Assembly: GCA_031316315.1 (NCBI GenBank)
Contig: JADBEO010000032.1
Span: 1 to 48,552 of the forward strand
DNA: 48,552 nucleotides
Reading direction: 5' to 3'
DNA from: Chelatococcus sambhunathii
GTDB lineage: Bacteria > Pseudomonadota > Alphaproteobacteria > Rhizobiales > Methylopilaceae
The stretch's first letter is position 1. Each line of letters starts with the position of its first letter. A program made the position numbers and the translations under genes. Below are positions 47,281 through 48,552 of the stretch, piece by piece. The notes under the pieces were generated by a model. The model was not told the origin of the DNA. It did not search any database and was given only the letters and a program-made list of their open reading frames with translations.

Positions 47281-47712
47281 GTGCCGCCGATGACATCTTC
47301 TCCGCAGCCGCGCCTCGCCGCGAGTCTCGCCTGCTTCCGCGACGGCGCGGTCCTGATCGCGCGCCGCGGCCGGGCGCCGAACAAAGGCCTCTGGTCGCTC
47401 CCCGGCGGCGGGGTCGAGTTCGGCGAGTCGGCGGCGGAGGCCGCCGTGCGCGAATTCGAGGAGGAGACCGGCGCGACCGCCGAGGCCATCGGGCTCGCCG
47501 ACGTCGTCGAGGTCGTCGCACGCGACGAGGACGGCCGGCCGCTTCGCCACGCCGTCATCCTGGCCTACGCTGGCCGGCTGGTCTCGGGCGAGCCGACGAC
47601 GACCGAAGAGGCCGACGCCGTCGCCTGGGTCGCGCCCGCCGACATCGACGACTACGCCACCACGCCCGGCCTTGCCGCCGTGGTGGCGAAGGCCGCGGAG
47701 ATCGCCGCGTGA
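47281..47712 (+). CDS. NUDIX hydrolase
   Basis: A 143-residue NUDIX protein with a complete box, GGGVEFGESAAEAAVREFEEETGA (G-x5-E-x7-REFEEETG form, residues ~40-63). It hydrolyses a nucleoside diphosphate linked to another moiety; in this family ADP-ribose or dNTP cleaning is typical but the substrate is unknown. The start may be GTG 47281 or ATG 47290. Its stop overlaps the GTG of the TIGR02301 gene fragment (GTGA), which is evidence that the fragment is a genuine gene start. Confidence 0.9.
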   Translation: MPPMTSSPQPRLAASLACFRDGAVLIARRGRAPNKGLWSLPGGGVEFGESAAEAAVREFEEETGATAEAIGLADVVEVVARDEDGRPLRHAVILAYAGRLVSGEPTTTEEADAVAWVAPADIDDYATTPGLAAVVAKAAEIAA

Positions 47713-47824
47713 TCCGTCCTCCGCTGGCCGCGCTGCTATGCCTTGCGCTGGCCTCGCCCGCGCTCGCTCAGCCGACCGACCGCAAGGCGCCCCCGAAGCC
47801 CACGCCGCAGCCCCAGGCCGCGCC
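47709..47824 (+). pseudogene. 5' fragment of a TIGR02301-family gene (signal peptide part)
   Basis: The frame starts at GTG overlapping the NUDIX stop and encodes a signal peptide (ALLCLALASPALA) and a Pro/Lys-rich segment ending PTPQPQAAP. After 47824 the frame runs over the antisense of another gene and stops making sense. The final PQPQAAP is encoded by exactly the same 20 bases that begin the minus-strand TIGR02301 body at the end of the window, in the same reading frame. The natural continuation is therefore the reverse complement of the window end. I treat it as a broken gene caused by inversion or misassembly. Confidence 0.8.
47805..47824 (+). repeat. 20-base repeat, left copy of a perfect inverted pair
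   Basis: CCGCAGCCCCAGGCCGCGCC; its exact reverse complement is 48533-48552, the last 20 bases of the window. It codes for PQPQAAP in the TIGR02301 frame on both strands. The two copies bound a 708-base segment (47825-48532). Confidence 0.95.
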
Positions 47825-48082
47825 TCAGTGCGGCAGGCTCGGCAGCGTATATCCGCCCTCGCGGATGCGCTCCGGCAGCTTTTCCGCAAAGCGGGCCGTC
47901 GCCTCCTCGCCGAAGGCGAGCACCAGTTCCTTGAGCGCGGCGAACAGGGCGGCGTGCGCGACGCAATCGGGCGCAATGCCGTCCAGCAGCGCCTCTTCCC
48001 AGGCCTCGTCGAGATAGGCGAGAGCCGCGCGGCGACCGTCAGCCACCGCAGGCTCCGTGTTAACGTTCTCTTCGTCGCTCAT
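47825..48082 (-). CDS. Conserved hypothetical small acidic protein
   Basis: An 85-residue acidic protein of unknown function with two or three predicted helices (ALAYLDEAWEEALLDGI, AALFAALKELVLAFGEEATARFAEKLPERI). It looks like a conserved Hyphomicrobiales hypothetical of the kind found beside TIGR02301 genes. Its stop codon touches the left 20-base repeat. In the flipped orientation it would lie downstream of the intact TIGR02301 gene, on the same strand, as expected for an operon partner. The plus-strand frame over it is rejected. Confidence 0.7.
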   Translation of the reverse strand: MSDEENVNTEPAVADGRRAALAYLDEAWEEALLDGIAPDCVAHAALFAALKELVLAFGEEATARFAEKLPERIREGGYTLPSLPH

Positions 48083-48189
48083 GCTGACGCCATGCTCCCA
48101 CTCCCGCGACCCTATCGGGATTCCGAGCGGGCGGTAGGCGATTCTCGAACAAAGGGTTAACGGACTGCGGAAAACCCGACCGATCGCGT

Positions 48190-48552
48190 TTACGGTCCGA
48201 AGCGGGCGCGCACGTCGCCGGCGATTTTCGCAGTCTCGTCCAGGAACATGCGGCTCGCCGTCCGGGCGGCCGGCGTGCAGCTGCGATAGCTCCTCGCCCA
48301 GGTGCGGAAGCTCGAATTGAAGGCGCCGGCGAGCCGGTCCCGACGCTCCTGCGTCGGCGCGTCGGCCTCGATCAGCGCGGCGAGCCTGTCGCGCCAGAGA
48401 TCGGCGTCCTTCTCCTTGCAGACGGTTCTGAGGTGATGCAGCGCGCCAAGCAGCTCGGCGAGGCGGATCATCTGCGGCTCGTAAGGCGGTGGCGCGTTGG
48501 GGTCGGGCTGCGGCGGGGCGACGGGCGCGGGCGGCGCGGCCTGGGGCTGCGG
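48190..48552 (-). CDS. TIGR02301-family protein, body (start missing at window edge)
   Basis: Reading inward from the window edge the frame gives PQPQAAPPAPVAPP, a Pro-rich linker, then YEPQMIRLAELLGALHHLRTVC, DLWRDRLAALIEADAPT, RRDRLAGAFNSSFRTWARSYRSC and RMFLDETAKIAGDVRARFG, the pattern of the exported TIGR02301 family (function unknown). The signal peptide and start codon are missing here; they are found on the opposite strand at 47709-47824. Joined, they would give a protein of about 152 residues. An internal ATG at 48471 is not the real start because it would lose the linker and signal peptide. Confidence 0.85.
   Translation of the reverse strand, partial: PQPQAAPPAPVAPPQPDPNAPPPYEPQMIRLAELLGALHHLRTVCKEKDADLWRDRLAALIEADAPTQERRDRLAGAFNSSFRTWARSYRSCTPAARTASRMFLDETAKIAGDVRARFGP
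48533..48552 (-). repeat. 20-base repeat, right copy of a perfect inverted pair
   Basis: Exact reverse complement of 47805-47824, lying at the last bases of the window, so the match may continue beyond the edge. See the left copy for the reading-frame relation. Confidence 0.95.

Follow-up and report, generated by a model that had tools for sequence, protein, structure and literature searches.

Organization of the contig end

The stretch of DNA analysed here (the window) is the complete contig C26, 48,552 bp long, of a draft genome comprising 100 contigs and 4,104,872 bases. Its right end carries a NUDIX hydrolase gene, a TIGR02301/DUF2385 gene found in two parts on opposite strands, an acidic ORF and two copies of a 20-base repeat (Table 1). 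The TIGR02301 N-terminal part begins with a GTG at 47709 and overlaps the end of the NUDIX gene in a GTGA motif, confirming the overlap described in a first-pass annotation of this DNA. The ORF of the TIGR02301 body (48190-48552, minus strand) runs open off the contig edge and scored above the curated threshold with both the TIGR02301 profile (114.5 bits; cut-off 42.55) and the DUF2385 profile PF09539 (106.1 bits; cut-off 25). The acidic ORF had no match among Pfam or NCBIfam profiles, and a literature search on the name TIGR02301 yielded nothing.

Table 1. Features at the right end of contig C26. Positions are those of the window; L009 is the corresponding locus of the reference relative G010.
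Feature	Positions	Strand	Remarks
NUDIX hydrolase gene	47281-47712	+	Natural place; PF00293, 81.3 bits; 97% identical to L009
TIGR02301/DUF2385, N-terminal part	47709-47824	+	Natural orientation; collinear with L009; signal-peptide-like start (by eye) and PQPQAAP linker
Repeat, left copy (20 bases)	47805-47824	+	Natural linker sequence; one homologous L009 site, 17/20 identical
Presumed false fold-back junction	47824/47825		Collinearity with relatives broken; L009 alignments switch strand here
Acidic ORF, 85 aa	47825-48082	-	Flipped direction; 96% identical to L009
TIGR02301/DUF2385, body	48190-48532	-	Flipped direction; profile scores computed for 48190-48552
Repeat, right copy (20 bases)	48533-48552	-	Same linker, second reading at the contig end; in L009 continuous with the body to the last base

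The same annotation had described the gene as split head to head by 708 bases between perfect 20-base inverted repeats, and this description was exact: the arms at 47805-47824 and 48533-48552 are 100% complementary over 20 nt, with 708 nt between them. It had also proposed that flipping 47825-48532 restores a protein of about 152 residues. A scripted flip of this segment indeed gave a single 152-aa frame, identical at 147 of 152 positions to the intact 152-aa protein of G010, the relative closest by its TIGR02301 protein (98% at the protein level), which served as the reference. As the window is the whole contig, the right arm ends at the last base of C26 and not at an arbitrary window edge, where the match had been noticed to stop. 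The last 60 bases of C26, containing the linker, are 88% GC and exceed 99.8% of the 60-base stretches of the window. At the other end of the contig, the first 54 bases (window:1-54) are the same as the last 54 bases of contig C35 in the same orientation, and C35 may therefore precede C26.

Both copies of the repeat map to a single site in the reference relative

The exact 20-mer was found at only these two sites in the whole assembly; with one mismatch allowed, it occurred at one place, on contig C22. A second repeat copy elsewhere as the true continuation of the contig was rejected, since the exact 20-mer is confined to the two C26 sites. On the reverse complement of L009, the left piece of the contig end aligns to 1297-1520 and the flipped piece aligns unbroken to 2230-1501. 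The two alignments thus both cover 1501-1520, a single site that is identical to the repeat at 17 of 20 bases. This overlap at one L009 site places the natural junction at 48532/48533 and the false one at 47824/47825. Because both arms map to the same L009 site, the comparison suggests that a second copy of the repeat is very probably absent from the genome. A real copy lying between the acidic ORF and the sequence beyond it, on contig C17 (see below), would be excluded through the relatives only; the exclusion is by analogy with them, as the stretch from the acidic ORF to C17 is missing from the assembly.

The occurrence of such arms by chance was assessed by shuffling. When the last 2 kb were shuffled by mononucleotide 2000 times, 726 of the shuffles contained a perfect inverted repeat of at least 14 bases, the arm threshold of this control, indicating that short arms are common in GC-rich DNA here. 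An inverted match of at least 18 bases, flush with the position sampled and within 1.9 kb upstream of it, was obtained at none of 20,000 random interior positions, the longest being 17. The feature that stands out is the length of the repeat combined with its flush position at the terminus.

The gene is collinear with its neighbours in relatives

The TIGR02301 protein was found in 34 of the 41 genomes searched (own genome included); none of the 13 genomes of the genus lacks it. Relatives were sampled at one genome per species. Gene order was counted in 17 loci, 12 from the same genus (L009-L020) and five from other genera of the same family (L021-L025); loci L026-L037, from other families, were left out of the count. 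The order NUDIX, TIGR02301, small protein, a point raised in the first-pass annotation, was present on one strand in 11 of the 12 same-genus relatives, with the acidic ORF as the small protein. The exception is G011, where a contig begins within the TIGR02301 linker; the body and the acidic ORF agree with the common order there, and the NUDIX gene is on a different contig, 142 bases short of its end. The NUDIX gene also agrees in four of the five same-family loci and was not found in the fifth within the 3.3 kb examined. The TIGR02301 body and the acidic ORF share a strand in all 17 loci.

It may be mentioned separately that the G011 assembly (C11 start, L017:1-50; C12 end, L210:1903-2044) also breaks in the TIGR02301 N-terminal part/linker. 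The G011 break shows no long fold-back, and its two contig ends do not overlap.

One of the two readings offered by the first-pass annotation was a DNA-inversion switch that turns an exported protein off. In the form considered here, a recombinase would flip the 708 bp between the 20-bp inverted repeats and thereby switch both the exported TIGR02301 protein and the acidic ORF on or off. The perfect inverted repeat and the intact 152-aa frame obtained on flipping are in keeping with it. In C26, however, the right copy of the repeat flanking the segment is the contig terminus itself, and the contig ends flush with it. In all 17 loci of the relatives, the 300 bp that follow the acidic ORF lack the reverse of the 20-mer, the best sites there having 6-9 mismatches of 20, and the flipped orientation was seen in none of these loci; the switch reading is not supported. 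Matches in the genome number three for serine recombinases (PF00239) and eight for tyrosine recombinases (PF00589), all on other contigs, with none on C26 or C17 (the gap past C26 is outside the assembly). The repeat, moreover, lies inside coding sequence and not at a promoter. A switch of this kind is thus given the slightest chance of the explanations considered. Hardly better placed is a strain-specific invertible segment that would split the conserved exported alphaproteobacterial TIGR02301 protein in its proline-rich linker, the repeat having been newly acquired after the acidic ORF.

A real inversion fixed in the strain by recombination or template switching, which would not involve switching, was considered as well. 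Inversions at short inverted repeats have been documented in bacterial populations with a cut-off of at least 12 bp (reported in PMC3411829), and in that study junction homology of at least 12 bases is given as a mark distinguishing true inversions from read chimeras. If the 20 bases were real homology between two sites, they would favour a true event. A fixed inversion, however, requires a copy of the repeat after the acidic ORF, which the relatives lack, and it does not predict a contig that stops exactly at the outer edge of the repeat. Since inversions at short repeats are described in PMC3411829 as real in bacterial populations, a small probability was kept for a genuine inversion; one fixed in the strain is nevertheless very improbable.

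The neighbouring contig and the gap

Beyond the acidic ORF, L009 carries a 72-aa ORF and then a convergent 211-codon gene with a LysE match (PF01810, 79.6 bits; cut-off 25.6). The LysE-family gene of the present genome (PF01810, 80 bits) is on contig C17 (57,267 bp); its DNA match to L009 is 89% identical and stops 46 bases before the end of C17. The true right-hand neighbour of C26 is C17, whose end comes shortly after the LysE-family gene. An overlap of the C17 end with the C26 tail was rejected: the longest word common to the last 300 bases of C17 and the last 852 bases of C26 is 11 bases, and a gap therefore stays between the two contigs.

The last bases of C17 (C17:57222-57267) contain the palindrome CCCTCCCCTGTCCCAGGGGAGGG. 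The general form of this palindrome, CCCTCCCC-N(2-12)-GGGGAGGG, was found at 134 places in the genome, and a reversed-pattern control gave 0. In the 2.29 Mb examined, 90 of 121 copies were no more than 150 bases from a contig end, and 86 ends had such a copy. Many of the breaks in the assembly thus coincide with this palindrome family, and the gap that separates C26 from C17 most likely holds a copy of the CCCTCCCC/GGGGAGGG element. Counts of the palindrome across 13 genomes of the genus ranged from 0 to 138. Among the copies listed for G002, G008 and G009, the palindromes often form mirror pairs about 100-120 bases apart, an arrangement that would suit a REPIN- or MITE-like element.

The 72-aa ORF (L009:802-1020) that separates the acidic ORF from the LysE gene in G010 resembles sigma-70 region 1.1 at a score just below the Pfam threshold (PF03979, 21.9 bits; cut-off 22.5). 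The DNA of L009:802-1020 was not found in the assembly of the present genome; its counterpart may be absent or lie inside the gap.

A second contig end folds back on itself

Contig ends were surveyed throughout the assembly. Sequence was readable at 182 of the 200 ends, 18 reading N; 58 contigs were covered whole, and of each remaining contig the first 20 kb and the last 2-20 kb were included. A scan for inverted repeats with perfect arms of at least 18 bases, a loop of at least 30 and a span of at most 2.5 kb covered 2.29 of 4.10 Mb and returned 41 repeats. Only two were flush with a contig end, those of C26 (arm 20, loop 708) and of C11 (arm 81, loop 826). With flush inverted repeats of this size at only 2 of the 182 readable ends, the assembly does not show this signature as a rule.

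The end of C11 (C11:83711-83856, L156:19855-20000) matches its own positions 82869-82949 through an 81-base perfect arm, with an 826-base loop. Compared with G010, 2,390 of 2,501 bases of this end align forward at 86% identity, whereas the final 92 bases match that stretch on its opposite strand, at 82% identity. This comparison marks the C11 end as a fold-back that is independent of the TIGR02301 gene. The loop direction differs between the two contigs, that of C11 being in the natural orientation and that of C26 being flipped.

Two further ends were considered in the survey. The start of C67 was rejected as a fold-back, its match being on the same strand and hence a direct repeat; the 17-base palindrome at the very start of C28, with a gap of 1 nt, is a plain hairpin and not a fold-back.

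The length of 20 had been explained in the first-pass annotation as k-1 for an assembler k of 21. When the longest exact match to other sequence was measured for each contig end, the lengths clustered at 127-130 bases (28 of the 182 readable ends), which suggests a k near 127, and there is no excess at 20 (three ends at 20, three at 21). As the end matches cluster in this way and the C11 fold-back measures 81 bases, an origin of the repeat in k=21 was dropped.

The contig end is best explained as an assembly artefact

As the relatives examined carry the gene unflipped, an assembly artefact is the most likely explanation, and with high confidence the end of C26 is an artefact of one kind or another. 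Of the two readings in the first-pass annotation, it is the artefact that was supported: the relatives are collinear, G010 has a single site for both arms, the contig end is flush, C17 is found as the neighbour and C11 provides a second fold-back end. Within this confidence, the end of C26 is probably a fold-back chimera. The TIGR02301 gene itself is very probably intact in the genome.

On the fold-back explanation, the order in the genome would be the NUDIX gene, an intact 152-codon TIGR02301 gene, the acidic ORF, the gap and the convergent LysE-family gene of C17. A strand end would have folded back onto its own strand and primed or ligated there at a distance of about 0.7 kb, so that the acidic ORF became joined at its end to the TIGR02301 linker on the opposite strand. 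Such a chimeric join would create a loop in the assembly with both ends attached to the same linker, which could be walked either way. In C11 the loop would have been walked in the natural direction and in C26 in the other, the assembler halting 20 bases after it re-entered sequence already used. Owing to this re-entry into the linker, the 20-base repeat would be one genomic site written twice. On the present reading its length has no special meaning and is simply the distance run after re-entry. We infer an origin of the join in the library and not in scaffolding or gap closing, the reversal of the loop by the assembler, and the content of the gap.

A different artefact, counted within the same overall confidence, would be a small piece holding the TIGR02301 body and the acidic ORF that was misoriented during scaffolding or gap closing; no chimeric read would be needed. 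The end product would be identical, and the terminal matches of 127-130 bases would fit a large-k assembler followed by scaffolding or gap filling. The fold-back tail of C11, however, lies behind a naturally oriented loop and is not readily produced that way. A misplaced piece is accordingly regarded as unlikely, though it deserves more weight than any of the genuine inversions discussed above.

Whichever artefact applies, the TIGR02301 gene would be read as broken in this assembly, though it is probably intact, and a phase-variable split gene is very probably non-existent as biology. Where a contig terminates flush with a short, perfect inverted repeat and a gene is split head to head, the contig can be a folded one. 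Such loci should stay off lists of phase-variable genes unless reads support them.

Comparison with known systems

Serine and tyrosine invertases drive invertible DNA switches. Flagellar phase variation in Salmonella is an example of such a switch (mentioned in PMC3411829). The end of C26 resembles these systems in having inverted repeats around a segment whose flip would restore a gene. It differs from them in that no PF00239 or PF00589 match is present on the contig and the loci examined in relatives contain no partner of the repeat; the C26 repeat is, in addition, coding sequence for a proline/alanine linker, and its arm stops at the contig terminus.

Fold-back chimeras are known from amplification and library preparation, and a literature search on fold-backs returned nothing. 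Lasken and Stockwell (2007, PMC1855051) reported that amplification with phi29 produces inverted, mostly intramolecular chimeras, more than 85% of the chimeras being inverted. In fixed-tissue samples, chimeras with nearby partners have been described to arise when single strands undergo end repair (SimFFPE/FilterFFPE, PMC8458033). The material described in these papers, amplified single cells (PMC1855051) and fixed tissue (PMC8458033), may not match the preparation of this genome. The C26 case is unlike them in being known from a contig end alone, and any micro-homology at the join is unreadable in C26 because the true downstream sequence is missing. The likeness lies in the structure itself: in these chimeras as at the end of C26, the sequence jumps to the opposite strand nearby in the same molecule and is then read back.
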